A stretch of 64,000 nt of DNA from Desulfovibrio cuneatus DSM 11391 (GTDB lineage: Bacteria > Desulfobacterota > Desulfovibrionia > Desulfovibrionales > Desulfovibrionaceae): assembly GCF_000430005.1 (NCBI RefSeq), contig NZ_AUCY01000010.1, forward strand, positions 62,001 to 126,000. The letters are read 5' to 3'. A program made the position numbers and the translations under genes. The notes under the pieces are model-generated. The model saw only the letters and a list, made by a program, of their open reading frames with translations. It was not told the DNA's origin and made no database searches. Below are positions 34,787 to 60,182 of the stretch, one piece after another; position 1 is the first letter of the stretch; each line of letters begins with the position of its first letter.

Positions 34787-34893
34787 TCCTTAATACACAG
34801 CATACACCAACGACAGATGTGGAGTTGATCCACAAGCAACTGAAATAACAAAACGTTGGGTTATTCCCCTTGGTCCCATAAGAGAAAGAACAT

Positions 34894-34938
34894 AAACGAG
34901 CTGGCGTGCGGTGTTGCCGTGCCAGCTCGTTTATTGTT
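34894..34938 (+). terminator. Intrinsic terminator after chemoreceptor
   Basis: AAACGAGCTGGC at 34894-34905 pairs with GCCAGCTCGTTT at 34921-34932, followed by ATTGTT. Confidence 0.75.
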
Positions 34939-34989
34939 ACAACGCACAACACAGGCAATAACGCTTCACCCCATAAACCAAGAGGCCTT

Positions 34990-35433
34990 ATGCGTCCAAT
35001 ACAGTTGATTTTTTTTGGTTTGATTATGTACGTAGCAACACCAGCGCTTGCCGCCTCAACAGACCCTGTTCTTGGGGAGCGGGCCTTGCGTGAGGAATGC
35101 AGTGCCTTCCCCCAAGCAGAAATGCACGTCTGCCTGGCGCAGAAAGCCGAAAGCAGCGAGAAGGCGTTGCGGCAAGCCGAGGATGAGGTAGCTCGCCTCC
35201 TCTCAAAATGGGATGAGGATAAACAGTACGTTAACCAAGCCAAAGAAAAACTTGCCACATCCAACAAAAATTTCTCCAACTACCGTGATTCCCAATGCCA
35301 ATTCCTGGCTTCGCTCAGTGGAGGTGGCGCTGGCAACGCGCACGAAATACGCCGCCTGGCATGCATTGCGGAACTCAATAACAGACGAACCCAGCAACTA
35401 CGCGACGCGGTGTCTGATTTGCCATTACAATAG
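34990..35433 (+). CDS. Periplasmic LprI-like protein (DUF1311)
   Basis: 147 residues from the ATG at 34990 with AGAGG upstream. A signal peptide covers about 1-22 (VATPALA-AS). The remaining pattern, with CSAFPQAEMHVCLAQKAE, a helical middle, YRDSQCQFLASLSGGGAG and ACIAELNNRRTQQL, fits the lysozyme-inhibitor LprI/DUF1311 family with four paired cysteines. Some members inhibit lysozyme; that role here is only inferred. It starts the accessory stretch of small genes. Confidence 0.7.
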   Translation: MRPIQLIFFGLIMYVATPALAASTDPVLGERALREECSAFPQAEMHVCLAQKAESSEKALRQAEDEVARLLSKWDEDKQYVNQAKEKLATSNKNFSNYRDSQCQFLASLSGGGAGNAHEIRRLACIAELNNRRTQQLRDAVSDLPLQ

Positions 35434-35464
35434 CTCACATGCGGGAGCAGGTCTGGCGATATTC

Positions 35465-35743
35465 ATGCGCCCGGTTCTGCACGTTATCGCAAAAGCTTTG
35501 AGCTTGGGCGTTACGTTCATTTACATAGCAGATAGCTCCATTACATTGATTTTGCTAACAATGTACGTTGTGACAACAATTCAAAATGTAGCGGGAATGC
35601 AGCAAGATAGCTTAGAAAGAGTGTTGCTTTGTGTGACGGCAGGCGGCATTGCTATCTATGCTTTTGTTACAGAAGCAATGAAGAATACAAGAAAGTTTGA
35701 TGCATATACTGAAAAGATGCATAGACACATTGCGGAAGTGTAG
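35465..35743 (+). CDS. Small two-helix membrane protein
   Basis: 92 residues from the ATG at 35465. Two hydrophobic stretches (about 8-33, ALSLGVTFIYIADSSITLIL, and 50-70, VLLCVTAGGIAIYAF) predict an inner-membrane hairpin, followed by a charged tail. A GGAG lies rather far upstream (about 18 bases), so an internal start is possible. Base composition is lower in GC than the flanking housekeeping genes. The next gene starts two bases after its stop. The family is not recognised. Confidence 0.55.
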   Translation: MRPVLHVIAKALSLGVTFIYIADSSITLILLTMYVVTTIQNVAGMQQDSLERVLLCVTAGGIAIYAFVTEAMKNTRKFDAYTEKMHRHIAEV

Positions 35744-35744
35744 C

Positions 35745-35963
35745 ATGTACGCAGTAATAGGAATTACATTGATAGTGTTCACGATTGCAAGCGGTTTTTA
35801 TCTTGACAGGCAACAATTCAACAGAAAAAATATTGCCGGAGTGCAGGAATTTAGCAGTTACGGCTCACTTGTAAAAACACGCATAATAGAAGGCACAATA
35901 AAAGCAATGAGTATTGCATCTGGGCTTGCAGGCATCGGCTTCATCATTGTACATTTTTCGTGA
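35745..35963 (+). CDS. Small two-helix membrane protein
   Basis: 72 residues from the ATG at 35745, immediately after the preceding stop (TAGCATG), with GGAAG upstream. Hydrophobic segments at about 2-18 (AVIGITLIVFTIASGFY) and 52-71 (AMSIASGLAGIGFIIVHF) suggest two membrane passes. The tight junction implies cotranslation with the previous gene, and the pair may act together. No family is recognised. Confidence 0.55.
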   Translation: MYAVIGITLIVFTIASGFYLDRQQFNRKNIAGVQEFSSYGSLVKTRIIEGTIKAMSIASGLAGIGFIIVHFS

Positions 35964-35982
35964 AACACAACAGAGTAGCAAA

Positions 35983-36011
35983 AAAGGGGCATCCAGGAGG
36001 GTGCCCCTTCA
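35983..36011. terminator. Stem-loop, terminator-like
   Basis: AAGGGGCA pairs with TGCCCCTT around TCCAGGAGGG. A T-run is present on the minus strand; on the plus strand it is weak. It closely resembles the hairpin at 36606-36632. Confidence 0.55.
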
Positions 36012-36106
36012 TAAAAGAACTTTATATAAAAATGCTCCCTATCCTCCCATACTAGACATATGATACTTAATTATGCTTTATTTATACAAAAGCAAAGGAG
36101 GAATAA

Positions 36107-36565
36107 ATGCCAATCCGTTACAAGGCCATCGGTTTTTCATATGAGGAACACAAAAAATACGCTCAATTATGCAAAATAGTGCGTATGTATGCACCTTGGT
36201 CTAATTATTGTAATAAGCTTCATTGGGAAATGGAAAAGTTACTTGCTCATGAAGGGTATAAAATCGACTTTTGCCGGGGCCGGAGGCACCCGCCTGAAGA
36301 GGGAAATTATTATAGCCCCTACCTGGAAGGCCCAGATCCAGTTTTACCAATTTATTCATTGGATGAATGTTACAAAGAACTGCACCTACTAATCACGAAC
36401 CTTGAAACATCAGATGCTCCAACATGTGCGACCAATGCAATAAAATATGCACACAAAGCCATAGAGCACCTCCAACGGTCCAGTAGGACCAAGTACTTTC
36501 CTCAGTATATTAAGTGGGTCAATAAATTAAATCCAAACAATATAGTGAATAATGAGTGCAAATAA
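36107..36565 (+). CDS. Hypothetical protein, AT-rich gene
   Basis: 152 residues with an excellent AAAGGAGGAATAA ribosome site. The protein is rich in Tyr, Lys and Asn, with no signal peptide or membrane segment. It carries HWEMEKLLAHEGYKIDF near 40 and YAHKAIEHLQRSSRTKYF near 120, suggesting an alpha-helical cytoplasmic protein. AT-rich codons contrast with the flanking chromosome, pointing to transfer. Near-identical hairpins bracket it on both sides. No function is recognised. Confidence 0.65.
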   Translation: MPIRYKAIGFSYEEHKKYAQLCKIVRMYAPWSNYCNKLHWEMEKLLAHEGYKIDFCRGRRHPPEEGNYYSPYLEGPDPVLPIYSLDECYKELHLLITNLETSDAPTCATNAIKYAHKAIEHLQRSSRTKYFPQYIKWVNKLNPNNIVNNECK

Positions 36566-36605
36566 CAAGTGGCTATATCAAATGATATTCAGTAGTCAGA
36601 AAGAA

Positions 36606-36640
36606 ATAAGGGCACCCTGTTGGATGCCCTTATTTATATT
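36606..36640. terminator. Bidirectional intrinsic terminator
   Basis: AATAAGGGCA pairs with TGCCCTTATT around a short loop, with T-rich sequence on both strands. It separates two convergent small genes. Confidence 0.7.
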
Positions 36641-36642
36641 TC

Positions 36643-36873
36643 TTAATCATCATTCTCTGCATAACTTTCTCTTACAGTACCTATCTTTGTTTGCCCTGGA
36701 ACGTGGTTCCCGTCTCCGTCAAGAACATCTACAGTAAGACCAGGATATTGCTTACTAAAGCGACGATCTTTCCATTCTTTAACGGTCATATCATTTTTTG
36801 CCGCATTTACCATGCCATACTGTGGCAAATTAGCTTTATCCGAGCGCAAGTTTTTACTTTCAGAAGTTTTCAT
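36643..36873 (-). CDS. Small hypothetical protein
   Basis: 76 residues, hydrophilic and charged (MKTSESKNLRSDKANLPQY, then WKDRRFSKQYPGLTVDVLDGDG). The Asp/Gly-rich VLDGDGNHV segment could bind a metal or form a turn. No good ribosome site is close to the ATG, so it may be expressed poorly or start elsewhere. It ends just inside the shared terminator. Family not recognised. Confidence 0.4.
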   Translation of the reverse strand: MKTSESKNLRSDKANLPQYGMVNAAKNDMTVKEWKDRRFSKQYPGLTVDVLDGDGNHVPGQTKIGTVRESYAENDD

Positions 36874-37025
36874 AACTACAGAAAACCCTTCAACATCCCA
36901 AATTTTTTTTCAACAGACTTAACTCTTGCCACATTATCTCCTTAAAATTTGGCCTATGTGAAACCATATTGTTTTCAAGATTTTGAACTTCCATCGAAGT
37001 CCATTTTTGCCCTAAGTACCTAGAA

Positions 37026-37310
37026 CTATTCCTGCATACGACCTGGAGCATCAAATTTATCCCGCAACCGCCACATCCGTTCTCCACGATCCCAGATTAC
37101 AATATTATCAGATATCTTTCTGAATATCTTCAATATATCCCTATGAATAGCTTGATTACCATTATCATTAAGATATGAGAACTCCTCCCCGAAGTTTAAT
37201 ATAATAGATGATACGGCATGATCTTGGTACAAGGCACCGTCTTTTTCAACTGTGGCAATCATCCATTCTGCTATTTGCTGGGGCGTAATTTCTTTTGGCT
37301 CTTTTGGCAT
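37026..37310 (-). CDS. DUF6953-like small protein
   Basis: 94 residues. The pattern ITPQQIAEWMIATVEKDGALYQ, FGEEFSYLNDNGNQAI and VIWDRGERMWRLR with a terminal DAPGR resembles the DUF6953 family as I recall it; the biochemical role is unknown. It looks like a compact winged-helix-sized domain. It starts six bases after the stop of the YodC-like gene, so the two are probably one operon. The gene is AT-rich. Confidence 0.55.
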   Translation of the reverse strand: MPKEPKEITPQQIAEWMIATVEKDGALYQDHAVSSIILNFGEEFSYLNDNGNQAIHRDILKIFRKISDNIVIWDRGERMWRLRDKFDAPGRMQE

Positions 37311-37316
37311 ATAAGG

Positions 37317-37511
37317 TTATTTTTTGGGCTCAGGTTCAACGTATGATTGCAACGCCTCATAATTAAAATTCTCTTTATTACTCTTTGTCCCTGCAAACCA
37401 TACACACGTGCATGAAAGCGGAAATGTGACAGAATTAACAGTCATTTTCGGGCCTCCAGATTTAAGCTGGACAAGGTCGCCAATTTTAAATTTTTGCTTG
37501 TTATCGGTCAT
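37317..37511 (-). CDS. YodC-family protein (DUF2158)
   Basis: 64 residues from the ATG at 37511 (GGA at seven bases), with an alternative ATG at 37526. FKIGDLVQLKSGGPKMTVNSV near residues 7-27 is the family signature, followed by CTCVWFAGTKSNKENFNYEAL. The fold is a small beta-barrel seen in phage and accessory DNA; function unknown. It is followed closely by the DUF6953-like gene. Confidence 0.75.
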   Translation of the reverse strand: MTDNKQKFKIGDLVQLKSGGPKMTVNSVTFPLSCTCVWFAGTKSNKENFNYEALQSYVEPEPKK

Positions 37512-37583
37512 GATATTTCCATGCATAGTTATAGGTTGTCTTGAAAATTTTAGTTAAAACAACGTTCCACTCAGCTATCAAGC

Positions 37584-37832
37584 TTAACGTTCTTTATTTG
37601 ATTGAACTAAAACAGAAGCCGCAAGTTCTTTTGTAAGTTCGCTAGACCGAATACTCTTCAACGCCGCAGAAGCCTTTGCTTCCATATCTGCCCCAGTTTG
37701 CTTACCCGAAGCAGCTTGTGCTAATGCAGAAGCTGCAAGGCTCCTCTGGATTGCAGAAGCATTTTCATCTTGTAAGACTTGCCCCGCAATGCTTGCAATC
37801 TTCTGCGAAGTTTTCTTTTTATTTTCTGCCAT
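37584..37832 (-). CDS. Small alanine-rich hypothetical protein
   Basis: 82 residues with GGGAG before the start. A lysine-rich N-terminus (MAENKKKTSQKIAS) is followed by an alanine/serine helical stretch (SLAASALAQAASGK). Short proteins with the opening KKTSKKVAS-type motif are common on mobile and plasmid DNA; function unknown. It lies 72 bases upstream of the YodC-like gene in the same direction. Confidence 0.6.
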   Translation of the reverse strand: MAENKKKTSQKIASIAGQVLQDENASAIQRSLAASALAQAASGKQTGADMEAKASAALKSIRSSELTKELAASVLVQSNKER

Positions 37833-38132
37833 AAAAACTCCCGTAGTAGATTATTTTTGCCATAGATTTTTATAATGACCACAAAATAATTATATTAAAA
37901 ATAATGCGTTATTTCAAGAAGTCAATAGTCATTTCCTGAATAAATACTGCATGAGCTATTGATCGTTCTTATCCGTTCCATTTCATGGTGCGCATCCGCA
38001 CAACTCTCACGCCAAAGCCTCACAAATATGTATATTCACTTATTTCACTATAGAAGTAAACCCTTCTCCCAAAAACACCCAAGGCATATGGTAACAGCAA
38101 GCGCTTACCCCCCCCGCCGTATACACATTGTA

Positions 38133-38184: not shown

Positions 38185-38457
38185 ATGAGCGCCACAGCCA
38201 CCATAAATTTACGTATATCCGACGAGGAAAAAGCCCTTATCGACCATGCCGCGCAGAGCATGGGCAAAAGCCGCACGGCCTTTATTCTTGAAAATGCGGT
38301 ACGTTGTGCGCAAGAAGCCTTGCTCGACCGCACCCGTTTTGTGCTTGATAGCAGCCAGTGGGAGCAGATTAATGCCGCCATGGACGCCCCCCCTACAGAA
38401 GGGCAGATTCAGGGTTTGCGTAAGCTGTTTGCCGCCCAAGCGCCATGGCAGAACTAA
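38185..38457 (+). CDS. TacA-type antitoxin (DUF1778)
   Basis: 90 residues with AAGGA upstream. A ribbon-helix-helix DNA-binding domain is seen at NLRISDEEKALIDHAAQSMGKSRTAFILENAVR (about 8-40); the C-terminal half would wrap the toxin. It represses its own operon and neutralises the acetyltransferase toxin encoded by the next gene, which starts 13 bases before its stop. This arrangement is typical for DUF1778/GNAT modules. Confidence 0.88.
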   Translation: MSATATINLRISDEEKALIDHAAQSMGKSRTAFILENAVRCAQEALLDRTRFVLDSSQWEQINAAMDAPPTEGQIQGLRKLFAAQAPWQN

Positions 38458-38960
38458 GTCGCGCCATGCTTTCAGTCCCCGCACCGCTCACCAAAGCCCA
38501 CGCTCTCTCCCACTTTTCGTGCGGGGAGCATTTACTGGATGACTGGCTACGCCAACGGGCCATGAAGAATGAACTCTCCGGCGCAACCCGCACCTATGTG
38601 GTGTGTTCCGGTAAGGCGGTGGTGGGTTATTATTCGCTGGCAGTGGGCAGTATTGAACACCAATTCACACCGGGCAGTATCAGGCGCAATATGCCACAAC
38701 CCATTCCTGTAATGCTTCTGGCCCGCTTGGCGGTGGACCAAAACCACACAGGGCAGAACATGGGCACTGGTATGCTGCGTGATGCCCTGCTGCGCACCCT
38801 GCAAGCGGCAACCATTGCTGGCATCAGGGCGCTACTTGTCCATGCCCTGCACGAAAGAGCTGCGTCATTCTACCTGAACCGGGGTTTTATAGTATCACCC
38901 TTTGACCCCTTGGTTCTGTTATTGAATCTTGACCATGCCAGGGCAACAATAGCCCCCTAA
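38445..38960 (+). CDS. TacT-type GNAT toxin
   Basis: 171 residues. The GNAT toxin pattern is seen: LSHFSCGEHLLDDWLRQRAMKNE near residue 20, VGYYSLAVGSIEH, then VMLLARLAVDQNHTGQNMGTGML near 88 with the acetyl-CoA loop, and a terminal region with RGFIVSPFDPLVLLLNL. Such toxins acetylate the amino group of charged tRNAs and stop translation. The overlap with the antitoxin gene supports coupled expression. The catalytic tyrosine is probably in SFYLNRGF. Confidence 0.88.
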   Translation: MAELSRAMLSVPAPLTKAHALSHFSCGEHLLDDWLRQRAMKNELSGATRTYVVCSGKAVVGYYSLAVGSIEHQFTPGSIRRNMPQPIPVMLLARLAVDQNHTGQNMGTGMLRDALLRTLQAATIAGIRALLVHALHERAASFYLNRGFIVSPFDPLVLLLNLDHARATIAP

Positions 38961-39037: not shown

Positions 39038-39139
39038 GCCCTTCTCTTGCACACCCTTGCCATTTCCCCACCATGAACCCAAAGCCCTAAATACAGAAAA
39101 AGCCCTTACAGCGTTTCCACTGCAAGGGCCTAATTTCTA

Positions 39140-39158
39140 TGGTTGCGGGAGCAGGATT
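39140..39158 (-). other. tRNA-fMet 3'-end fragment, candidate attachment site
   Basis: TGGTTGCGGGAGCAGGATT is the reverse complement of a tRNA 3' end terminating CCCGCAACCA. The A72 and A73 with CCA fit initiator tRNA. The rest of a tRNA is absent: bases to the right are AT-rich DNA. Such fragments are left where elements integrate at tRNA ends. The surrounding 584-base gap holds no gene other than this, the tacT terminator and the Pho box. Confidence 0.65.
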
Positions 39159-39375
39159 AAAATTTAAAACATAACATGTTGATACTTTTCAGATAAAATA
39201 AAAAATTAAAAACTGATACCCCCTCAAATACCCCCATATTATCTTGATGTGAAAAGATTTGGTTACACAAAGTGGGACAGAAATCGCCCACAGGTATATG
39301 CCATATACAAAAAACAAGCAGAGAGAAGAAAGAAAACCTGGAGTATTCCAGCAAGTGCACGCAGGAATAACGGAA

Positions 39376-39404
39376 AAGTCACGCTAATGTCACAAAAATG
39401 TCAT
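39376..39404 (+). promoter_or_regulatory. Pho-box-like repeats upstream of chemoreceptor
   Basis: Three heptamers at 11-base spacing: AAGTCAC (39376), ATGTCAC (39387) and ATGTCAT (39398), consensus CTGTCAT. TAAATT at 39404-39409 could be the -10 when the first two repeats act as the box. PhoB-type regulators bind such repeats. Confidence 0.6.
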
Positions 39405-39544: not shown

Positions 39545-41323
39545 ATGTCTGTACGGACAAAGATTCTGCTTGGCATCTCGTTTCTGTTGGGGCTTCTCTT
39601 GCTTTCAGGGGGTGCAGGCTACTACGGCGTGCGTTCGCTTTGGGCAGAAACAGCAGCTATACGGGGGCAAGAAACCCAGCTTGTACAAGCTGCTAACGCG
39701 GCCCATATTTCCATGCTCACCCACAGGCGGTTTGAAAAAGACCTGCTGCTGAATGCAGGAGCAACTGAAAAACAAAAAGATTACTTGCAACGCTTCATGG
39801 CAGAAAATGACCGCTTGCAGCGCATACTCCAGAGCCTGCTGCAACTTGCTAGGAATGACGCCAGCATGCCGCGTGAAACCCGTGAAATGCTGGATTCTGC
39901 CCCAAACGACCTGAGTGTGTATATACAGGGGGTTAAGGGCGTGGCCGCCGAACTGTTTGCCCACCCGGAACTTACCCCGCAGCAGGGTAATAGCAAGATA
40001 GGGCAATTCAAAACGGCAACCTACCGCATTGAGCAGGCAGTAAATGCCGTGCTTACCTACAGTGCTGAAGCCATAAGCAGGCGCGAAGCCGAGCAGCAGG
40101 AAAACAATGAAAACATCAGCAGTCTCATCCTGCTTGTCCTTGCTGCGGGGGCCGGGAGTTCGCTGGTTATTGCCCTTGTGTTGCTCCGTTCTGTGACGCA
40201 GCCGATAATTGGGCTGATAAACTTTGCCCAAAATGTGGAAAAAGGCAATTTGGAAGCTGTTGCCCGTGGAACATATAAGGCTGACATGCTTGTTCTAAAA
40301 CAGGCACTTGAGGCCATGGTAGCTTCATTGCGCACAGAAATGGCAGCTGCTGCAACGCAAGCCAGGGCAGCCCAGGTGGCAACCCAGGCAGCAAAAGAAG
40401 CTCAGGCTAAAACGGAAGAAGCCATGCGGCAGGCTGAAACCGCCAAGCAGGAAGGCATGGCCCAGGCAGGCAAGGCGCTGCAAGGTGTTATGCAGGAATT
40501 GCGCGCTACGGCAAAGGCTATTGAGCAATGTGTTGGCACAGCCAGTGATGGCACTCGTAAGCAGCAGGATCATACCCAGGGTATGGCAGGTGCCATTGGG
40601 CAAATGCGGGCCAGTGTGGAAGTAGTGGCCCAGCGGGGGGCCACCACTGCGGCGGAAAGCACCACGGCCTATACCGCCGCAACGAAAGGCCTGCAACGGG
40701 TGGAAGCCTTGGCAGGCTCCATGCAGGAAATATCGCAGCAGGTGGAAAACACTCGCCTTGGCCTGGGTGCGCTGGAAGAGAAAATGAACGGCATTGTGCA
40801 GATTTTGGGTAGTATTCGGGAAATTGCCGACCAAACCAATTTGCTGGCCCTGAATGCCGCCATTGAAGCTGCCCGCGCTGGTGAAAGTGGGCGCGGGTTT
40901 GCTGTGGTGGCTGATGAAGTGCGCAAACTGGCTGAAAAAACCATGACAGCCACAGGGGAAGTGCAGTCAGTTGTGAACAGCATTGGCACCGAAGTTGGTC
41001 ATGTGGCAGAATGTATGCGCCTTTCCATTGCCTCTGTGGAAAAAGGGGTAAACCTGAGTCAGGAAACGGAGCACCATATTCGAGACATTGCTCATTCTAC
41101 ACAAGAAGCTGCCACCCAGGTGCAAAGCATTGCTGCGGCAGTGCAGGAACAAGCCGTCAGCAGTGAGGCGATAGAAAGAAATGCCACCGAAGTACACTCC
41201 ATTGCCAGTGAAACGTTTACCTTAATGCACGAAGCTGAAACCAGAGTCGGCCACATCGGTTCCAGCGTGGCAACGCTGGAAACACTCGCAGCACAACTTA
41301 TATCCGGTAAACAGATGCATTAA
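39545..41323 (+). CDS. Methyl-accepting chemotaxis protein
   Basis: 592 residues, AAGGATGG upstream. A first membrane helix (about 8-30), a helical periplasmic domain (about 31-195, four-helix type, rich in Gln/Glu), a second helix near 198-218 ([21 protein letters not shown]), HAMP and the signalling domain with [21 protein letters not shown] near 425 are seen. It should report an extracytoplasmic signal to CheA. Pho-box-like repeats upstream suggest induction by phosphate limitation. The terminator after it separates it from the phn operon. Confidence 0.92.
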
Positions 41324-41535: not shown

Positions 41536-42003
41536 ATGAATATATCTTGCTGCGGCAGTACAGAGCCACTTACCAGGGCGCAATGGATGCGCCTTCTGGC
41601 CCTTGCCCCAGAACAATTACTTGATGCATTTATCCGTCCGGTAGCCCAGCGCGCCGCCTATTCTTTTTTGCGCAAGCCCGAAGCTGGGCTTGTGATGGTG
41701 GAAGGCCAAACAGGAGCCACCCGGTTTAATCTTGGTGAAATGCTGGTTACCCGCTGCACCGTGCGTTTGCAAGGCGAACAGGAATGCCTTGGCTATGCCT
41801 GGGTGCAAGGTAACAAGCCAGAACATGCCACACTTGCTGCTTTGGGCGATGCCTTTATGCAGCTTGCTGAATATAATAAGCCGTTTACAGAGCAGCTATT
41901 TTCTGTGCTGCAACAAAAAGAAGCTGAGCGCACACTGGCTCAGGAACAGGAAGTAGCCCCAACGCGGGTAGAATTTTTTACCATGGTACGGGGGGAAGAC
42001 TAA
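41536..42003 (+). CDS. phnG: C-P lyase subunit PhnG
   Basis: 155 residues. The pattern LTRAQWMRLLALAPEQLLDAF, then FLRKPEAGLVMVEGQTGATRFNLGEMLVTRCTV fits PhnG. It is part of the PhnGHIJ core complex that, with PhnI and PhnL, attaches phosphonate to the C1' of ATP, releasing adenine. First gene of the operon, behind a Pho box. Its stop overlaps the phnH start (TAATG). Confidence 0.95.
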   Translation: MNISCCGSTEPLTRAQWMRLLALAPEQLLDAFIRPVAQRAAYSFLRKPEAGLVMVEGQTGATRFNLGEMLVTRCTVRLQGEQECLGYAWVQGNKPEHATLAALGDAFMQLAEYNKPFTEQLFSVLQQKEAERTLAQEQEVAPTRVEFFTMVRGED

Positions 42004-42659
42004 TGAGTACACTTGTTCCCGGTTTTGCCAGCCCAGTGCATGAGGCGCAGCAATGCTTCCACACTGTGCTCCATGCCATGAGCACCCCCTGCACGCTGCA
42101 TACCTTGCCTGTGTTGCCCCCCCAGCCTGAAGCCGAGGGCAAATTCAGCGCAGGCATGGCCGCCCTGGCCCTTGCCCTGTGCGACGGGGAAACACCCCTG
42201 TGGTTGCAGCCAGAGTTAGATACTGAACCCCTGCGCCGCTACCTGCGGTTTCATTGCGGGGCCGTGTTTGCACCTTCCCCTGAAAATGCCGCCTTCGCCT
42301 TTATTGCCATGCCACAAACCATGCCCAGCCTGAATGCTTTTTGCCAAGGCACTGCCATGTACCCGGAAACCAGTACCACCGTCATCATTGCTACTTCCTT
42401 TGCTGGGGCAAGCGGCCTTGTGGTCCAAGGCCCCGGCATTGGTGGGGCGCATGGTAAGCAGCGCCCCGTGCCAGTAGCCGAGTTGCCAGAACTTTTTTGG
42501 CAACAGTGGCGGGAAAATAACCGCAGTTTCCCCTTGGGGGTGGATGTGGTTTTTATTGAAAATACGACGAATACAGCCATGCCCCGCATTATGGGCTTGC
42601 CCAGAACCACGGTTGTGCAGGCCGCCACAGTTACACAGGAGGCCATGCCATGTATGTAG
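42003..42659 (+). CDS. phnH: C-P lyase subunit PhnH
   Basis: 218 residues. PVHEAQQCFHTVLHAMSTPC near residue 10 and GPGIGGAHG near 147 are PhnH-typical. PhnH is a structural member of the core complex. The gene overlaps phnG by one base and phnI by ten, showing coupled translation. Confidence 0.94.
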   Translation: MSTLVPGFASPVHEAQQCFHTVLHAMSTPCTLHTLPVLPPQPEAEGKFSAGMAALALALCDGETPLWLQPELDTEPLRRYLRFHCGAVFAPSPENAAFAFIAMPQTMPSLNAFCQGTAMYPETSTTVIIATSFAGASGLVVQGPGIGGAHGKQRPVPVAELPELFWQQWRENNRSFPLGVDVVFIENTTNTAMPRIMGLPRTTVVQAATVTQEAMPCM

Positions 42660-43804
42660 CCGTAAAAGGGGGCGAAAAAGCCATTGACGCCGCCCATGCC
42701 TTGCTTGCCCAAAAACGCCGGGGCAACCCTGCTGTGCCGGAAGTTGGCATAGAACAAATAACCGAACAGCTTTCCCTGGCAGTGGACAGAGTTATGGCGG
42801 AAGGTTCCCTGTATGCCCCGGAACTGGCAGCCCTTGCAGTCAAGCAGGCCAGGGGTGACATGGTGGAAGCCATTTTTCTGCTCCGTGCCTTTCGTACCAC
42901 CCTTACCCGTTTTGGCTCTTCCTTGCCTGTGGCAACAGAAACCATGCAGGTGCAGCGGCGTATTTCTGCCGCCTATAAAGACATTCCCGGCGGGCAGGTG
43001 CTTGGCCCCACGTTTGATTACACCCACCGCTTATTGGATGCCTCCCTGCTGACTCCTTCTGCCACGACAGAAGACGTATCTGCCATGGCACAAGAACAGG
43101 CGCATGCCACAGTAAATAACGTAACCTACCCTAAAGTTATGGGATTCCTGGAGCAGGAAGGACTGTTGCCGCAAGCAAGCAATACAGAGCCACCTGCTGC
43201 ACCGGAAGACATTACCCGCAACCCCCTTACCCTGCCCGCAGGGCGCGATGTGCGTCTGCAAAACCTGGCTCGCAGTGATGAAGGGTTGTTGCTTGCCCTT
43301 GCCTACTCCACCCAGCGCGGCTTTGGTTCCACCCATCCCTTTGCCGGGGAAATTCGCATGGGTACGGTGGAAGTGAGTTTTGTGCCGGAAGAGTTGGGCT
43401 TTCCTGTAGTGCTTGGGGAAATGTTTCTTACGGAGTGTGAAACGGTGAACAAGTTTCACGGTGGCGCGGGGATAGAGCCTTGCTTTACCAGAGGCTATGG
43501 CCTTGCCTTTGGGGAAAACGAACGCAAAGCCCTGAGCATGGCCTTAGTAGACCGTGCCTTGCAAGCCCCGGAGCTGGGGGAAGCCGTCATGGCCCCGGCC
43601 CAAGACCAGGAATTTGTTTTGTACCATAGCGACAACGTAGAAGCTTCCGGCTTTGTGCAGCATTTAAAGTTGCCCCATTATGTGGACTTTCAGGCGGAAC
43701 TTGGCCTTGTTCGTGGCATGCGCGAGGCATTTGCCCGGCACCAGGCCAGCGCCCAGGCTACCACACAGGCAAATGCAGCAACCGGTACGGAGGAAGGCAT
43801 ATGA
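42650..43804 (+). CDS. phnI: C-P lyase subunit PhnI
   Basis: 384 residues, starting MYVAVKGGEKAIDAA. YSTQRGFGSTHPFAGEIRMG near 220 and the GFVQHLKLPHYVDFQAEL region near 330 are conserved. PhnI, with PhnG, H and L, catalyses the nucleosidase-type attack that yields ribose triphosphate-linked phosphonate. It overlaps phnJ by four bases (ATGA). Confidence 0.95.
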   Translation: MYVAVKGGEKAIDAAHALLAQKRRGNPAVPEVGIEQITEQLSLAVDRVMAEGSLYAPELAALAVKQARGDMVEAIFLLRAFRTTLTRFGSSLPVATETMQVQRRISAAYKDIPGGQVLGPTFDYTHRLLDASLLTPSATTEDVSAMAQEQAHATVNNVTYPKVMGFLEQEGLLPQASNTEPPAAPEDITRNPLTLPAGRDVRLQNLARSDEGLLLALAYSTQRGFGSTHPFAGEIRMGTVEVSFVPEELGFPVVLGEMFLTECETVNKFHGGAGIEPCFTRGYGLAFGENERKALSMALVDRALQAPELGEAVMAPAQDQEFVLYHSDNVEASGFVQHLKLPHYVDFQAELGLVRGMREAFARHQASAQATTQANAATGTEEGI

Positions 43805-44736
43805 CCGCCCAAACAGACACAATGCACAGCATGGAAAACCATGCCGAGGCATGTTTTCAATACAATTTTGCCTACCTGGACGAACAAACAAAACGCATGG
43901 TGCGCCGGGCCTTGCTCAAAGCCGTTGCCGTGCCGGGTTACCAGGTACCCTTTGGCAGCCGTGAAATGCCCATGCCGTATGGCTGGGGGACGGGGGGCAT
44001 TCAGATTTCTGCCGCCATTATGGGCCAGGATGATGTGCTGAAGGTGATTGACCAGGGGTCAGACGACACCACCAACGCTGTTTCCATTCGCAGCTTTTTC
44101 CGCAAGGTTGCCGGGGTTGCCACCACAACGCATACAAGCGAGGCAACCATTATCCAAACCCGCCACCGTATTCCTGAAGAAGCCCTGCAAGAGGGGCAGG
44201 TTATGGTGTACCAGGTGCCCATTCCTGAACCTTTACGCTGGCTGGAACCCAGCGAAACCGAAACACGTACCATGCACGCCCTGGAAGAATACGGCATCAT
44301 GCATGTGAAACTGTATGAAGACATTGCCCGCCATGGGGAAATTGCCACCAGCTACGATTACCCCGTGCTGGTGGGGGGGCGCTATGTGATGAGCCCTTCC
44401 CCCCTGCCCAAGTTTGACAACCCCAAAATGGACAACTGCCCGGCCCTGCAACTGTTTGGGGCAGGCAGGGAAAAACGGGTGTATGCCATTCCGCCCTATA
44501 CCACAGTAAAAAGCCTTGATTTTGAAGACCACCCCTTTGCCGTGCAAACGTGGCTGCGCCCTTGCGCCCTGTGCGGCAGCACAGAAAGTTACCTGGACGA
44601 AGTGATTGTGGATGATGCCGGGGCGCGATTGTATGTGTGTTCAGACTCTGACTACTGTGCGGCCCGCCAGGCCCAGGGCCATGTGGGTGACGGTATGCCC
44701 GTTGCTGCCCCGCAGGGTACAGGGAAGGAAGCATAG
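43801..44736 (+). CDS. phnJ: C-P lyase radical SAM enzyme PhnJ
   Basis: 311 residues. The N-terminal body contains YAFLDEQ-like FAYLDEQTKRM and GYQVPFGSREMPMPYGWGTGG near residue 50. C-terminal cysteines CALCG near 259 and CSDSDYC near 280 supply the 4Fe-4S cluster and the radical-carrying Cys. It cleaves the C-P bond of 5-phosphoribose-1-alkylphosphonate, giving the alkane and the cyclic ribose phosphate. The C-terminal tail is longer than the 281-residue E. coli protein. phnK follows after two bases. Confidence 0.96.
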   Translation: MTAQTDTMHSMENHAEACFQYNFAYLDEQTKRMVRRALLKAVAVPGYQVPFGSREMPMPYGWGTGGIQISAAIMGQDDVLKVIDQGSDDTTNAVSIRSFFRKVAGVATTTHTSEATIIQTRHRIPEEALQEGQVMVYQVPIPEPLRWLEPSETETRTMHALEEYGIMHVKLYEDIARHGEIATSYDYPVLVGGRYVMSPSPLPKFDNPKMDNCPALQLFGAGREKRVYAIPPYTTVKSLDFEDHPFAVQTWLRPCALCGSTESYLDEVIVDDAGARLYVCSDSDYCAARQAQGHVGDGMPVAAPQGTGKEA

Positions 44737-44738
44737 CT

Positions 44739-45566
44739 ATGAGTACAGTATCTTCACAATACCCAACCACGATGGAGCCCATGAATACCAGTACAGAACA
44801 GCCTTTGTTGCAGGTGGAAAATGTGGCCCACTATTATGGTAGCCGGGTAGGCTGTGCCAAGGTCTCATTTTCTTTGTGGCCGGGAGAAGTGCTCGCCATT
44901 GTGGGGGAATCCGGTTCTGGCAAAAGCACGTTGCTCAACATTATTTCAGGCCGCCTTGCCTTGAGCGAAGGGTCTATTACCTACCGTGATGCCGCTGGGC
45001 AGCCATACGACATTGCTAACCTGCCGGAAGGGGCAAAACGCCGCCTGTTGCGTACGGAGTGGGGTTTTGTACACCAGCACCCGCGTGATGGTTTGCGCAT
45101 GGCGGTGAGCGCCGGGGGGAACATTGGGGAACGCCTTATGGCTTGTGGTGAGCGGCATTATGGCACCATTCGCAATGCAGGCAAGGAATGGTTGCACCGG
45201 GTGGAAATTCCGGAAAACCGGCTGGATGACACCCCAGCCTCCTATTCCGGCGGTATGCAGCAGCGTTTGCAAATTGCCCGTAACCTTGTGTCTTCCCCAC
45301 GGCTGGTGTTCATGGATGAGCCCACAGGCGGGCTGGATGTTTCTGTGCAAGCAAAGTTGCTTGACCTGCTCCGCCACCTGGTGCGCAACCTTGGGCTTGC
45401 TGTGGTGCTTGTTACCCACGACCTTGCAGTGGCCCGCCTGCTGGCAGACAGAATGCTGGTGATGCACCAGGGTGCGGTGGTGGAAGCAGGCCTGGCAGAC
45501 CAAGTGCTGGACGACCCACACCACCCATACACCCAGTTACTTGTTTCCTCCATTTTGCAAGGATAA
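44739..45566 (+). CDS. phnK: C-P lyase ABC-type protein PhnK
   Basis: 275 residues. ABC ATPase motifs: Walker A GESGSGKS near residue 57, signature YSGGMQQRL near 170 and Walker B RLVFMDEPTGGLD near 192. PhnK binds the core C-P lyase complex rather than a transporter. The exact start is unclear since in-frame ATG codons follow at 44772 and 44781. phnL is next. Confidence 0.94.
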   Translation: MSTVSSQYPTTMEPMNTSTEQPLLQVENVAHYYGSRVGCAKVSFSLWPGEVLAIVGESGSGKSTLLNIISGRLALSEGSITYRDAAGQPYDIANLPEGAKRRLLRTEWGFVHQHPRDGLRMAVSAGGNIGERLMACGERHYGTIRNAGKEWLHRVEIPENRLDDTPASYSGGMQQRLQIARNLVSSPRLVFMDEPTGGLDVSVQAKLLDLLRHLVRNLGLAVVLVTHDLAVARLLADRMLVMHQGAVVEAGLADQVLDDPHHPYTQLLVSSILQG

Positions 45567-45572
45567 TGCGCC

Positions 45573-46301
45573 ATGACCATTTCCGCTGTACCCACAAATA
45601 CCCCGCCTGCACTGGCAGTGCGCAATCTTTCCAAAACATTCACCCTGCACACCCAGGGCGGCGTGCGCATTGAGGCCTTCAATAACCTGAACCTTGAAGC
45701 CCATTATGGCAAATGCCTTGTGTTACACGGGCCTTCCGGGGCGGGTAAATCCACCCTGTTGCGCTCCATGTATGCCAACTATAAGCCGTGTTCCGGCAGC
45801 ATTGTGGTGCAGCATGGGAAAGAAGTGGTGGATATAGCCACCGCAACACCCCGGGAAATATTGGCGATACGCCGCGACACCATCGGTTATGTCAGCCAGT
45901 TTTTGCGGGTTATTCCCCGTGTAAGCACCCTAGATATTGTGGCAGAGCGCTGCCTGAGCATGGGGGAAGACAAGGCCTTGGCAGAAGAAAAGGCCGTGGC
46001 CCTGCTACGCCGCCTGCGTATTCCAGAACGGCTCTGGCGCATTGCCCCTGCCACCTTTTCCGGCGGGGAACAACAACGAGTGAACATTGCCCGTGGGTTT
46101 ATTCGCTCCTACCCGGTGCTGCTGCTGGATGAGCCCACAGCTTCACTGGACGCCACCAACAGACAAACAGTTATTGAACTTATACAGGAAGCCAAGGCCA
46201 ATGGTTGCGCGGTAGTGGGCATTTTCCACGATGAAGCCGTGCGCCATGCCGTGGCAGACACCCTTTTTCAAGTACAATCAGGAACAACCAATGCTGCGTG
46301 A
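45573..46301 (+). CDS. phnL: C-P lyase ABC-type protein PhnL
   Basis: 242 residues. Walker A GPSGAGKS near 53, signature [14 protein letters not shown] near 164 and Walker [13 protein letters not shown] near 187. PhnL is needed with PhnGHI for formation of the ribose-triphosphate phosphonate. It overlaps phnM by 11 bases. Confidence 0.94.
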
Positions 46302-47451
46302 ACTGTGCCTTGTAAATGCAAAAATTGTCACCCCTTTTTCCGTAATAGAGGGGCATGTCCATATCCAAGATGGCAAAATTGCCCATGTGGAAGCAGGCCC
46401 TCTGCCTTCCCTGCACCTGCAAAACGGGTGCACTGTGGAAGACTGCCAGGGCGATTACCTTATTCCTGGCCTTGTGGAACTGCACACCGACAACCTTGAA
46501 AAGCATATGATGCCACGGCCCAAGGTTATTTGGCCTTCTGCCAAGTCGGCTTTTTTGGCGCACGACGCCCAGCTTGCCGCAGCAGGCATAACCACCGTGT
46601 TTGACTCTGTATGTATTGGCGAAACCCAGGACAAAGGCCGTTACCCCATGCTCAAAATGGCGGTAAAGGCGTTTGATGAATGCGCCCATGAAGACGACAT
46701 GCGCGTGGACCACCGCTTGCATTTGCGGTGCGAACTGAACGACCCCAACATGTGGGACATGTTTGAACCCCTTGCCCAATCAGCGGGTTTGCAGCTTGTT
46801 TCCTTGATGGACCATACGCCGGGGCAGCGCCAATGGCGTAATACCGACGCCTACCGCACTTACTACAGCACTTCAAAGATGTGGAGTGAAGAAGAATTTG
46901 CTGAAACTGTTGCCATATTGCAGGAAAGGCAACGCCGTTACACACCCTTGCACACCCGCATGGTGATGGAGTTTTGTGCCCAGCGCAACCTGCCCATGGC
47001 CAGCCACGACGACACCACCACAATGGATGTGGACGATGCGCTGAAAATGGGCATAGGCATCAGTGAATTTCCCACCACCCTTGAAGCCGCACAACACGCT
47101 CATGCCCATGGCATGACAGTACTTATGGGTTCGCCCAATGTGGTGCGCGGGCAGTCGCATTCCGGCAATGTCAGCGCCCTGGAAATAGCCAGGGCTGGCT
47201 GGCTTGGGGGCCTTTCATCCGACTATGTTCCTGCAAGCCTGCTGCACGGGGCTTTTGTGCTGCACCAGCAAGCGGGCCTTTCCTTGCCCGCAGCCATTGC
47301 CTTAGTAACCAAAAATAATGCCGATGCTGTGGGCCTGAAAGACAGGGGTGCCATTGCCCCTGGCTTGCGGGCAGACATGGTGCGGGTTGCCCTGCGGGGC
47401 GATTTGCCCGTTGTACGCCGGGTGTTGGTACAAGGCCAATTGGTATTTTAA
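46291..47451 (+). CDS. phnM: Alpha-D-ribose 1-methylphosphonate 5-triphosphate diphosphatase PhnM
   Basis: 386 residues from the ATG at 46291 (AGGAA upstream); a longer frame lies inside phnL. Amidohydrolase features: [12 protein letters not shown] near 55, [10 protein letters not shown] near 230 and [12 protein letters not shown] near 310. It removes PPi from ribose-phosphonate triphosphate. It overlaps phnN by one base. Confidence 0.94.
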
Positions 47452-48053
47452 TGAAACAGTATTCCGGACTTCTCGTGTATGTGGTTGGTCCTTCCGGGGC
47501 TGGCAAGGACAGTTTGCTTTCCTTTGCCAAAAGCCATTTTGCCCAGAACAGGCAGGGCAGCCAGCCCATGCATTTTGTCCGGCGGCACATTACGCGCCCA
47601 GCAAAAGCTGGGCATGAAGATCACATACCCCTTTCCTCTTCCCAGTTCACCGCACTTTCCCAGGATGATGCCTTTATTCTGGAGTGGCACAGCCACGGGC
47701 TTTCCTACGGCATTCACCGCAACATACTGGAACGCCTCAAGCAGGGTGGCATTGTTGTCATGAACGGCTCACGAGCCTACGCCCAAGAAGCTGCCCGGCG
47801 CATTCAGCCCATGCTTGTTGTTGAAATTACTGTGCAGCGGGAAGTTCTGCGCCAGCGCCTTGCGGCCAGGGGCAGAGAAAGCGAAGAAGGTATTGAAGCC
47901 CGCCTGGAACGGGCTGGCCTGGAACTTCCTCCCCTTCCAAACCATATACGCATTGATAATTCGCTGGCGCTGGAAACTGCCCAGCATGCGTTTGTGCAAA
48001 CCCTTGCCAATTCTTGGCAATACGTTCTTCATAAGGAGACTACTCATGATTAA
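47451..48053 (+). CDS. phnN: Ribose 1,5-bisphosphokinase PhnN
   Basis: 200 residues. P-loop [10 protein letters not shown] near residue 13 and guanylate-kinase-like [15 protein letters not shown] near 44. It converts ribose 1,5-bisphosphate and ATP to PRPP, completing the path. It overlaps phnC by eight bases. Confidence 0.93.
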
Positions 48054-48876
48054 GGTCAAGAATCTCTCCCGTTCCTTTGGTTCCCACCGTGCTCTCAACG
48101 ATATATCCCTTTCCATCAATAAAGGGGAAATGGTGGCCCTTATTGGCGCTTCCGGTTCCGGCAAATCTACCTTGCTGCGCCACATTTCCGGCCTTACTCA
48201 GGCAGATAAGGAAGGCGGCTCAGTGCGCGTTTTGGGTGACGTTGTACAACATAACGGTAGGGTTACCCCGAGCATCCGTAAAACCCGTGTGAACATTGGC
48301 GTTATCTTTCAGCAATTCAACTTGGTGGAGCGGCTATCCGTACAAACCAACGTTATGCTGGGGGCGTTGGGGCGCGTTCCTTTGTGGCGTTCCTTTTTCG
48401 GTATGTTTCCGGAAAAAGTGCGTAAAGATGCCTTGCAAGCCCTTGTGCGTGTTGGGATTATAGACAAAGCATTTCAGCGTGCTTCCACTCTTTCCGGCGG
48501 GCAACAGCAACGCGCTGCTATTGCAAGAGCCATGGTGCAAAAGGCCAAAGTGCTTCTGGCAGATGAACCCATTGCTTCCCTTGACCCTGAATCTTCCCGC
48601 CGGGTTATGGAACTGCTTGCCGAAGTGAACCAGAAAGACGGCGTTACCGTGGTGGTAACCCTGCACCAGGTAGACTTTGCCATTAAATACTGCCCGCGCA
48701 CGGTAGCCTTGAAAGATGGCGTGGTGGTATACGACGGCCCTTCCGACAGACTGACCCCTGCCTTTTTACAGGAAATCTACGGCGCAGCCAGTGCGGAAAT
48801 GTTTGCTCATGCCACTTCGCAGGAAACTGAACATAACTATGCACCATCCATGCAGCTTGCCCACGGGGCTGCATAG
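48046..48876 (+). CDS. phnC: Phosphonate ABC transporter ATP-binding protein PhnC
   Basis: 276 residues from the ATG at 48046 with AAGGAG upstream, inside the end of phnN. Walker A GASGSGKS near 34, signature [14 protein letters not shown] near 150 and Walker [14 protein letters not shown] near 173. It powers phosphonate import with PhnD and PhnE. A hairpin element starts directly after its TAG. Confidence 0.95.
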
Positions 48877-49080
48877 GGAAACGCTGATTAATTCCGTTTG
48901 GCGGCGTTGCTCGTTTTTTTTGAAGCGGGGCAGGACCGAAGAGTTGACTCGGCCCGTCCTGGGCCTCGGCCTTCGGCTCCCGCCCTCCGGGCGGTTCCCA
49001 ATTCCGCTTTCCTGCGGAATTGTCAGCACCCGCCTCAAAAAAAGCTCGTGCCTTGCCAAACGAAACAACTGAGCGTTTCC
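48877..49080 (+). repeat. Complete 204-base hairpin element between phnC and phnD
   Basis: Begins GGAAACGCTGATTAATTCCG right after the phnC stop and ends AACTGAGCGTTTCC. The ends are long imperfect inverted repeats. The interior carries extra hairpins, e.g. CCGCCCGGAGGGCGG-like and AATTCCGC/GCGGAATT at about 49000-49022. It has no coding potential. Confidence 0.85.
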
Positions 49081-49138
49081 CCCAATGGCCATGTAATCAA
49101 TGTGTTTCAAATTTTTATCAATCTTATTGGAGTGCCCC

Positions 49139-50143
49139 ATGAAACTATCCCGTATACTGGCTTTAGCCCTTACTGTGGCCTGCGTTACCGGTTTTTCCCT
49201 TCCTGGTGTGGCAGCCGCCCCCAAGGAACTGGATTTTGGTATTATCAGCACGGAATCTTCCCAGAACCTGAAATCACAGTGGCTCCCCTTTTTAAAGCGG
49301 ATGGAAGAAGAAACGGGCATGAAAATTAATGCCTTTTTTGCCCCGGACTACGCAGGCATCATTACCGGTATGCAGTACAATAAAGTACAGCTTGCCTGGT
49401 TTGGCAACAAGTCTGCCATTGAAGCTGTAGACAGAGCTGATGGCGAAGTATTTGCCAAAACCATGGATAAGGCGGGCATTGGTGGGTATTACGCCCACCT
49501 GGTGGTGCGCAAAGACTCCCCACTGAACTCAGTTGAAGACGTGCTGAAAAATGCCAAGAACCTTACGTTCAGCAATGGCGACCCCAACTCTACCTCCGGC
49601 TTTGTGGTGCCTGGGTATTATGTATTTGCCAAAAACAACGTAGACCCCAAAAAAGCATTTAAGCGCACTGTAAACGCAAACCATGAAACCAACGCCATGG
49701 CTGTTGCCAACAAGCAGGTAGATGTAGCCACTTGCAACAGTGAAACCTTGACAAACCTGCGCAGAAGTAACCCCGCCAAAGTAGATGAAATCAAAGTTAT
49801 CTGGACTTCCCCCCTTATTCCCGGCGACCCACTGGTGTGGCGTAAAGACCTGCCCAAGGAAACTAAAGAAACCATTGCCAACTTCATCTTCAATTTTGGA
49901 GTAAAAGGCCCAAAGGTGGAAGAAGACAAGAAAATTCTTGCCAACCTGGATTGGGCTCCTTTCCAGCCTGCCACCAACGACCATTCCATTCCCATTCGCC
50001 AGCTCGAATTGTTTAAAGACCGTTCAAAGGTTGAAGGCAACGCCAACCTGAGCGATGCGGAAAAGAAAGAGAAATTGGCTGCCATTGACGCTGCCCTGGC
50101 AAAACTGGATGCCCGCGCCAATGAGCTGAAAAAGGCCAAGTAA
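49139..50143 (+). CDS. phnD: Phosphonate-binding protein PhnD
   Basis: 334 residues from the ATG at 49139 with GGAGTG upstream. A signal peptide (about 1-26, ending GVAAA) precedes a type 2 periplasmic binding fold with FGIISTESSQNLKSQW near 32 and FSNGDPNSTSGFVVPG near 141. It captures phosphonates in the periplasm. A hairpin without T-tract follows before phnE. Confidence 0.95.
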   Translation: MKLSRILALALTVACVTGFSLPGVAAAPKELDFGIISTESSQNLKSQWLPFLKRMEEETGMKINAFFAPDYAGIITGMQYNKVQLAWFGNKSAIEAVDRADGEVFAKTMDKAGIGGYYAHLVVRKDSPLNSVEDVLKNAKNLTFSNGDPNSTSGFVVPGYYVFAKNNVDPKKAFKRTVNANHETNAMAVANKQVDVATCNSETLTNLRRSNPAKVDEIKVIWTSPLIPGDPLVWRKDLPKETKETIANFIFNFGVKGPKVEEDKKILANLDWAPFQPATNDHSIPIRQLELFKDRSKVEGNANLSDAEKKEKLAAIDAALAKLDARANELKKAK

Positions 50144-50162
50144 TCTTTGTTATGACTGTTAA

Positions 50163-50187
50163 AGAGCCCGGTTACAAGCCGGGCTCT
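50163..50187 (+). other. Intercistronic hairpin between phnD and phnE
   Basis: AGAGCCCGG pairs with CCGGGCTCT around TTACAAG. No T-run follows, so it may protect the phnD message from degradation rather than stop transcription. Confidence 0.65.
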
Positions 50188-50206
50188 TGTATAGAAAGGA
50201 AAGAGT

Positions 50207-50986
50207 ATGACCAATGCTACGTTACTCGCTCCCAAGCGATCCTGGTTTCCTATGTTTCTTTGGGGAGGTTGCCTTGCTGTGCTGGCCCTCTCTTGGAATG
50301 GGGCAGACATGCGCCCCATGGCCCTGTTTACCGATGGTGCCAACATGGGGTCTTTTGCCAAGGGGTTCTTCCCGCCAGATTTTGCCGACTGGCGGCTGTA
50401 CCTGGAAGAAATGGTAGTAACCATTCAGGTTGCCTTGTGGGGTACGGCCCTGGCTGTGGTGTTTGCTGTGCCTTGCGGCATTTTAAGTTCTGAAAACCTG
50501 GTGCCCTGGTGGGTGTACCAACCCATGCGCCGCCTTATGGATGCCTGCCGCGCCATCAATGAAATGGTGTTTGCCATGCTGTTTGTAGTAGCAGTGGGGC
50601 TTGGCCCATTTGCCGGGGTTATGGCCCTGTTCGTCCATACCACAGGTGTTCTGGCAAAGCTGTTTTCCGAAGCCGTGGAAGCTATTGACCCGCACCCGGT
50701 AGAAGGTATCCGCTCCACAGGTGCCCTGGGTATTGAAGAAATTCTGTACGGCGTTATCCCGCAGGTTCTGCCTTTGTGGATTTCCTTCTCCCTGTATCGC
50801 CTGGAATCCAACATCCGTTCTGCCACTGTGGTGGGTATGGTGGGTGCAGGTGGCATTGGTGTGGTGCTGTGGGAGTTAATACGCGGGTTCTATTTTGCCC
50901 AAACCGCTGCGGTTATGCTGGTTATTATTGCCGTGGTTATTTTGTTTGACGTGCTTTCCCAATTCATTCGCAAGCGGTTTGTATAG
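50207..50986 (+). CDS. phnE: Phosphonate ABC transporter permease PhnE
   Basis: 259 residues with AAGGAAAG upstream. About six hydrophobic segments lie between 18 and 250 and an EAA-like loop is seen in [20 protein letters not shown] near 163. It forms the membrane channel with PhnC and PhnD. A hairpin-element end begins directly after its TAG. Confidence 0.95.
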
Positions 50987-51031
50987 GGAAACGCTGATTA
51001 ATTCCGTTTGGCGGCGTTGCTTCACTTTTCT
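50987..51031 (+). repeat. Hairpin-element left end at phnE stop codon
   Basis: GGAAACGCTGATTAATTCCG and the following bases are identical to the copy at 48877 for about 37 bases, ending in the leader of the next gene. No right end is seen. The plain copy at 5741-5786 is similar. Confidence 0.8.
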
Positions 51032-51052
51032 TACCAAAACTCAGAGCAGAAT

Positions 51053-51811
51053 ATGGAATACCGCTACGCTATCTATTATATCCCCAAGCATGAAACCCCC
51101 CTGTATTCTCGTGGGGCAGCCTTGCTTGGCTATGATGTGTATACAGGCCATCAGTTGCCTTCAATCAAGGCTGCCCTGCCAAGGCCCCTGGCAGAGGATG
51201 CCCTGACGCAAGAGCCAGCCCGCTACGGCCTGCACGCAACCGTAGTGGCCCCTTTCTTTATCGCCTCCCTTACAGAAGAAGAATTGCTGGCAGAAGCGGC
51301 TGCTTTTTGCCTCCGGGCAAGTTCCGTGGTGTTACCGCATGTCCAGCTTGTCATGCACCGGGGGTTCTTTGCTTTGCGCCCGGCCCAGGTTTCCGCGCGG
51401 GAGCGCACAGCCTATGCCCAGTTGATGCAGCTTGCGGCGCTTGCTGTGCGCTTTTTTCATCCCCTTCAGGCTCCGCTTGAAGAAGTTGAACTGCGCCGCA
51501 GAGGCGGGCATTCCCTTACCCCACGGCAACAGGCCAACCTCACACGTTGGAACTACCCCTACGTGCTGGATGAGTATGAATTTCATATAACCCTAACCGG
51601 GAAGATTGCGGAAGGGCAGGAAAACAGCCTGGTATTGCCACTTAATTCATATTTCGCTCCACTCCTGATGGATCCACTGGAAATAGGCAGCTTGTGTGTG
51701 TGCCGCCAGCCCGTTACCCCGGAAGAAAAACGTGAAAGCCGCTACGCTTCCCCCTTTACGGTAGTGGCGCACTTTCCCCTTGAAGGCACAGTGGAAAGGA
51801 ATGCCCTATGA
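51053..51811 (+). CDS. DUF1045 phosphonate-operon protein (2H phosphoesterase-like)
   Basis: 252 residues from the ATG at 51053. Two histidine motifs, GLHATVVAPF near 62 and EFHITLTG near 178, match the 2H phosphoesterase superfamily (DUF1045, a C-P lyase operon family). A likely role is opening the cyclic ribose 1,2-phosphate made by PhnJ, a job done by PhnP where that is present; no phnP is in this window. This is inference from context. It overlaps the next gene by four bases. Confidence 0.8.
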   Translation: MEYRYAIYYIPKHETPLYSRGAALLGYDVYTGHQLPSIKAALPRPLAEDALTQEPARYGLHATVVAPFFIASLTEEELLAEAAAFCLRASSVVLPHVQLVMHRGFFALRPAQVSARERTAYAQLMQLAALAVRFFHPLQAPLEEVELRRRGGHSLTPRQQANLTRWNYPYVLDEYEFHITLTGKIAEGQENSLVLPLNSYFAPLLMDPLEIGSLCVCRQPVTPEEKRESRYASPFTVVAHFPLEGTVERNAL

Positions 51812-60057: not shown

Positions 60058-60182
60058 GAAACGCTCATTTTTTCCGTTTGGCGGCGTTACTGCGTTTTTT
60101 TGGAAAGGGGGCAGGGCCAAAGAGCCCACCCCCCTTTCCAAAAAAACTTGCGCCTTGCCAAACGAAAAAACTGAGCGCTTCC
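60057..60182 (+). repeat. Hairpin element at porin stop codon
   Basis: Left end GGAAACGCTC with ATTTTTTCCGTTTGGC, right end AACTGAGCGCTTCC. The interior pairs TTTTTTTGGAAAGGGGG with CCCCCTTTCCAAAAAAA. Its first base is the last base of the TAG stop. Confidence 0.85.

Follow-up and report, generated by a model that had tools for sequence, protein, structure and literature searches.

The lone 3' end of a tRNA-fMet gene at position 39140 of the Desulfovibrio cuneatus DSM 11391 sequence raises the question of which kind of boundary it marks, and whether the phosphonate (phn) genes located to its right entered the chromosome as part of an integrated island. The window (the whole stretch of DNA analysed, 64,000 nucleotides of contig C5) includes the following features at this junction:

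39085 to 39139, minus strand: duplicate of the tRNA-fMet terminator, immediately 3' of the scar, recognised by homology to contigs C43 and C16 and by its hairpin
39140 to 39158, minus strand: tRNA-fMet 3' end AATCCTGCTCCCGCAACCA (19 nt), the proposed attR core of an island to the right, from genome-wide exact matches and side-by-side comparison of cores
39217 to 39236, minus strand: GGGGTA-N6-GGGGTA pair GGGGGTATTTGAGGGGGTAT, candidate arm-type sites for an integrase on the distal arm, with the same motif and spacing found elsewhere

The initial annotation of the window had described a tRNA-fMet 3' end without its body, and this description was upheld. In the 3.36-Mb genome (76 contigs) exact copies of the last 18 nt of AATCCTGCTCCCGCAACCA are present at three sites, on C16, on C43 and in the window, and the single intact tRNA-fMet gene of the genome is located at C16:54735-54812 (plus strand). 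The homology runs leftward past the tRNA end into the terminator, with 98.5% identity to the C43 scar over 66 nt (39093-39158) and, for scar plus terminator, 88% identity over 69 nt to the DNA downstream of the intact gene on C16. Folding analysis gives a strong terminator-like hairpin for the 55 nt adjoining the scar on the left (-27.8 kcal/mol, z -6.9), and the tRNA body and 5' part are absent from the flank to the right. Allowing up to 3 mismatches, 0.06 matches to the scar would be expected by chance in the window. Bacteria may have several tRNA-fMet genes and tRNA pseudogenes occur, which would favor a chance or degenerate tRNA-fMet duplicate with no integration junction. Such a duplicate needs the tRNA 5' part in the right flank, where there is none, and both the 66-nt match to another scar and the specific arm pair, placed where a distal att site should have it, speak against this disfavored reading, which retains hardly any probability. 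On these sequence comparisons the scar is confirmed as a genuine tRNA-fMet integration remnant, better supported than at first described, and the scar with its terminator corresponds to the displaced tRNA 3' fragment, in the correct orientation, that tRNA-integrated genomic islands carry at their distal end.

The paired ACCCCC runs at 39217-39236, previously assigned to the type seen near integrase starts, correspond to GGGGTA-N6-GGGGTA on the tRNA strand (39234-39217). This pattern occurs 6 times in the genome, versus 2 for the reversed control pattern, and was never obtained when the local 200 bases were shuffled 200,000 times. For three of the five other genomic pairs, a tRNA 3' end or core lies about 115-130 nt upstream and an Arm-DNA-bind_3 integrase follows shortly downstream; this integrase is complete on C51 but shortened on C17 and C52. 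The assignment of the window pair to integrase-associated repeats is supported; several GGGGTA pairs sit within genes and are unlike the att-associated ones. The repeats are putative arm sites that would bind the arm domain of the integrase. Most of the six spacer bases differ between the window pair and the C51 pair, which counts against the explanation preferred below.

The same arrangement recurs elsewhere in this bacterial order. At four loci of relatives (L081, L083, L088 and L096) the order is tRNA, pair and long frame, and L091 is organized likewise with a shorter frame. Three other loci (L080, L085 and L075) show the mirror case, as in the window, with the pair followed after 50-150 nt by a bare tRNA 3' end and no integrase; the tRNA remnants at these distal ends are CGATTCCCGCCCCGGGCACCA in L080 and TCCCTCTCCGCCA in L085, the latter with a terminator-like hairpin after it, and the window and L085 have CATGTTATG in common, located between arm and core. 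Since a pair that precedes a tRNA remnant without an integrase is also present at the distal ends of relatives, the window junction is read as a distal att site (attR) with its island to the right. A distal end would also account for the lack of an integrase beside the window pair, which had been observed correctly from the start. At locus L084 (C1:338856-338873) a GGGGTA-N6-GGGGTA pair is followed after about 75 nt by a sequence ending in GAGACACCA and by a terminator-like hairpin, perhaps another distal island end.

The placement of the element on the tRNA-body side, proposed earlier from the usual geometry of such integrations, agrees with an arm pair located right of the core as in the distal ends of relatives, and both the scar and its polarity have good support. 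The left flank includes the following feature:

38185 to 38960, plus strand: TacA-like antitoxin and GNAT acetyltransferase toxin-like gene (PF08681, PF13508), left of the scar and outside it

An island lying to the left, in which the terminator and the TacA/GNAT pair would be another tandem element and the right side old chromosome, was also considered. The TacA/GNAT region looks mobile and similar DNA is found in several relatives (G002, G003, G006 and G008), the G+C content falls to 0.38 at 36-38 kb, and in tandem arrays an island may lie on both sides of a scar. Against it, the arm repeats are present only right of the scar, which is the tRNA-body side in all three distal analogues, and neither an integrase nor repeat arms were recognised on the left; a fourth unit could lie there, and the right-hand island would stay. 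An island on the left in place of the right one is therefore very improbable. A further mobile unit may exist at 34800-38000, where the G+C content drops to 0.38 beside the TacA/GNAT pair.

A second part of the evidence comes from contig C51. The segment C51:9371-9423 is fMet-like up to GGTTCAAATCCT and then continues with ACTCCCTCCGCCA, the end of tRNA-Ser(TGA). After this hybrid core, C51 matches the DNA beside the tRNA-Ser gene on C17 (350 bp, 97%), and beyond it a profile search identified an intact integrase of 393 aa with Arm-DNA-bind_3 (90.7 bits) and Phage_integrase domains; the C51 pair (C51:9537-9554) is located between the hybrid core and this integrase. When the cores are compared, C51 has fMet sequence left of AATCCT and Ser sequence right of it, and the window has arm sequence on the left and fMet sequence on the right, so that both look like the reciprocal products of one crossover within AATCCT. 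The window scar is the sole available complement of the C51 hybrid, because the 18-nt fMet end is found only on C16, on C43 and in the window.

At the tRNA-Ser(TGA) gene on C17 (C17:28787-29308), att-flanking DNA is followed by a P4-type integrase cut to a 68-aa frame and joined to a repeat. By sequence this site is a relic from the same island family as the C51 integrase end. A complete sister island on C17 was rejected, since its integrase is truncated and the genome contains neither a distal tRNA-Ser scar nor any further copy of the tRNA-Ser end. For the tRNA-Ser island of relative G022, no distal scar was found within 60 kb.

The most probable explanation, held with considerable though incomplete confidence, is that the scar is the attR of a P4/CP4-type tyrosine integrase island, termed E3, which lies to the right, most likely carries the phn genes and has its integrase end on C51. 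Islands of the P4/CP4 type have an integrase with an Arm-DNA-bind_3 (DUF4102) N-terminal domain, as the C51 integrase does, its assignment to E3 being indirect; they also have a core in the T-stem/3'-end region with arm-like repeats on both sides, for which the counterparts here are the 19-nt core and the pairs at 39217-39234 and C51:9537-9554. The proposed extent of E3 in the window and its contents are listed below:

39159 to 64000, no strand: proposed right-hand part of E3, from the C51/C5 overlap, the reciprocal att halves and sparse conservation in relatives
39388 to 39403, plus strand: Pho-box-like pair TGTCA-N6-TGTCA upstream of the chemotaxis and phn genes, from an exact pattern scan
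39545 to 41323, plus strand: methyl-accepting chemotaxis protein (MCP), first gene inside the island end (PF00015)
41536 to 48053, plus strand: C-P lyase genes phnG, phnH, phnI, phnJ, phnK-like and phnL-like ABC ATPases, phnM-like amidohydrolase and phnN (Pfam, NCBIfam)
47815 to 52470, plus strand: phosphonate transport ATPase, PhnD-type binding protein, permease, DUF1045 protein and TIGR03308 hexapeptide transferase (Pfam/NCBIfam)
58573 to 60057, plus strand: outer membrane homotrimeric porin DESULF_POR1 (NF033939, 499.8 bits), with paralogs on C9
62128 to 63666, plus strand: SBP_bac_5 binding protein for a peptide-type ABC transporter, preceded by a Pho box (profile match)

Further exact Pho-box-like pairs are located at 41421 and 62040. 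The true start of the phosphonate transport ATPase is probably later than 47815, and the SBP_bac_5 operon extends past the window and includes a type I phosphodiesterase. Other proposed cargo of E3 comprises EAL, MFS, AraC-type regulator and TIR-domain proteins; genes for transfer or replication were not recognised there, a point against E3. Two repeats were found among these genes. One of about 205 bp (48876-49096, separating the genes for the phosphonate transport ATPase and PhnD) recurs with 86-94% identity in at least 8 other places of the genome, is also present in G011 and occurs in part on C51 and C17. The other, of about 128 bp (C5:122056-122183, approximately window 60056-60183, C5:122056 corresponding to about window 60056), follows the porin gene and has many copies in this genome and also in G004, G009 and G011.

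Beyond the window, E3 would continue to the C5 end (window coordinate about 75763), then through an IS200-like element into C51 with its integrase. As a check, an intact tRNA-fMet and an integrase had been looked for to the right, as the earlier note advised, and this was not what was found: C5 stops within an IS200-like copy that lies 36.6 kb to the right of the scar and has no tRNA on this side. The better reading of the sequences is that the tRNA-side end of E3 would be the hybrid fMet/Ser core on C51, rather than an intact tRNA-fMet. The C51 end has the 5' half and the C5 end the 3' half of the transposase, which we take to be IS200-like at the C5 end by eye from its translation, with matching orientation and a 27-bp overlap. 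A C5 end at a ribosomal RNA operon was discarded, as it matched no rRNA family and consists of the transposase half. Contig ends with IS200-like halves are not unique (three 5' halves and five 3' halves), and the C51-C5 join is consequently no more than probable; the repeat by itself would give it a chance of about one in five, which the fit of the att halves increases. If both contigs join, the size of E3 would be about 38.9 kb. Location of the phn region inside the element, suggested earlier, is likely from the reciprocal att halves and the 27-bp overlap, and depends on this join in a draft rather than a closed assembly.

Alternatively, the scar could be the attR of a P4-type tRNA-fMet island whose remainder has been deleted or rearranged, with the MCP and phn genes as resident DNA that arrived later. 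Island relics do exist in this genome, as at the C17 tRNA-Ser site with only the first part of an integrase (68-aa frame), and the phn clusters of relatives are at other genomic places where examined. In the same-genus relative G011, for example, the cluster is presumably near fliM, fur and tRNA-Asn (gene names by eye from translations), and no GGGGTA-N6-GGGGTA pair was found near the phn clusters of G006, G008, G011 and G022. This alternative has to set aside the intact integrase on C51, with its complementary att half and a contig end fitting C5, and the 36.6 kb right of the scar, in which no core gene was recognised and little is conserved within the genus. It is considered unlikely, with more weight than the other two alternatives. 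Also in favor of E3 is the distribution of phnI, present in 3 of the 14 relatives from the same genus (70-72% identity) and in 7 of 40 genomes overall; the phn gene order is nearly colinear with that of relatives. Against E3, the G+C content right of the scar (0.47-0.57) is not clearly foreign, and neither the left flank nor the upstream flank on C16 gave a useful synteny match with the tRNA-fMet loci of the relatives examined, so no empty site was found among them. Comparison of the junction with a phage collection gave no relevant match.

At tRNA-fMet, E3 would be the last in a stack of three islands. Beyond the intact gene, C16 continues for 6 kb through DNA containing TTTCTAACC repeats and shares an exact overlap of 247 bp with C43, and past this overlap C43 has an integrase with TTTCTAACC repeats and a 46-nt fMet half, which closes a first island, E1, of about 14 kb (13,955 bp). 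Beyond its scar, C43 contains TCCTCTCCCCATCCTCTCCCC and several genes, among them those for a DUF3987 and a YagK/YfjJ-type protein. On C51, just before another fMet half, there is a second integrase with TTCTCCCCATTCTCTCCCC repeats, and TCTCCCCAT repeats are found at both proposed ends of a second island, E2, on C43 and C51, with an assembly gap between them across which continuity would be assumed. Read away from the intact tRNA-fMet gene, the array would then consist of E1 (about 14 kb) ending at the C43 scar, E2 ending at the hybrid, and E3 (about 38.9 kb) ending at the window scar, beyond which comes the old flank. Within the proposed E2, the region L068 (C51, 222-6429) has short repeated genes with a CdiA_C match that resemble contact-dependent inhibition cassettes.

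According to the proposed mechanism, the E3 attP would carry a tRNA-Ser 3' end and would have recombined, within the shared AATCCT, with the displaced tRNA-fMet 3' fragment that an earlier island had left behind. One junction (C51) would then join the fMet 5' part to the Ser end, and the other (window) the E3 distal arm to the fMet end and terminator. On balance, and with less confidence than for the island end itself, a tRNA-Ser(TGA) P4-type integrase appears to have used the displaced tRNA-fMet fragment of an unrelated island, sharing as little as AATCCT-N-CTCCC. Earlier scars would thus provide spare, harmless landing sites at which islands of different tRNA specificity are stacked, here with a Pho-controlled phosphorus-scavenging set.

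An island end at a tRNA scar is an ordinary kind of object, and the hybrid landing is an unusual twist of a known kind. E3 resembles the islands of the Islander collection (PMC4383910) in its tRNA 3' fragment at the distal end and in its proposed tyrosine integrase and tandem arrangement; those islands include crossover classes A (anticodon) and J (T-stem region). Tandem arrays of three or more islands were reported there in 4 cases in 2168 genomes, and the genome with most islands (19) was that of Desulfovibrio magneticus (PMC4383910). A textbook tRNA island has the restored cognate tRNA at its other end, whereas here a hybrid fMet/Ser core is proposed, as for a tandem or secondary-site insertion, and the integrase that such islands carry would be that of C51, linked through an ambiguous IS200-like overlap. 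Islander pairs each tRNA with its own fragment (PMC4383910), while E3 would have fMet sequence at one end and the hybrid at the other; with this core at one end, E3 could escape a cognate-pair search, which would explain why island finders of this design could miss such islands. Salmonella genomic island 1 (PMC2297512) is similar to the proposed E3 in its imperfect secondary site, its mixed end cores that locate the strand exchange and its tandem copies, but it integrates at the last 18 bp of thdF and has an intergenic second site, whereas E3 would use a fragment of another tRNA gene and is known from its sequence only. In a limited literature search, no description was found of a displaced tRNA fragment used by an integrase of other specificity, and this locus suggests that such fragments may serve as secondary attachment sites.

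The sulfate reducer Desulfotignum phosphitoxidans (PMC4046663) has phnGHIJKLM and a phosphonate transporter, as here; in the portion of that source considered, its reduced-phosphorus island carries the phosphite (ptx/ptd) operon and phn is not placed on a tRNA-bounded island. With the scar described here, the left end of the phosphonate region is placed precisely, and the acquisition of C-P lyase by a member of Desulfovibrionaceae can be cast in a testable model. Stacked scars at tRNA-fMet are also present in the relatives G022 and G017. In G022 (L061/L062, C1:2644847-2673680), the intact tRNA-fMet is accompanied by two stacked 3'-half scars 13 and 16 kb apart, forming another fMet tandem array.
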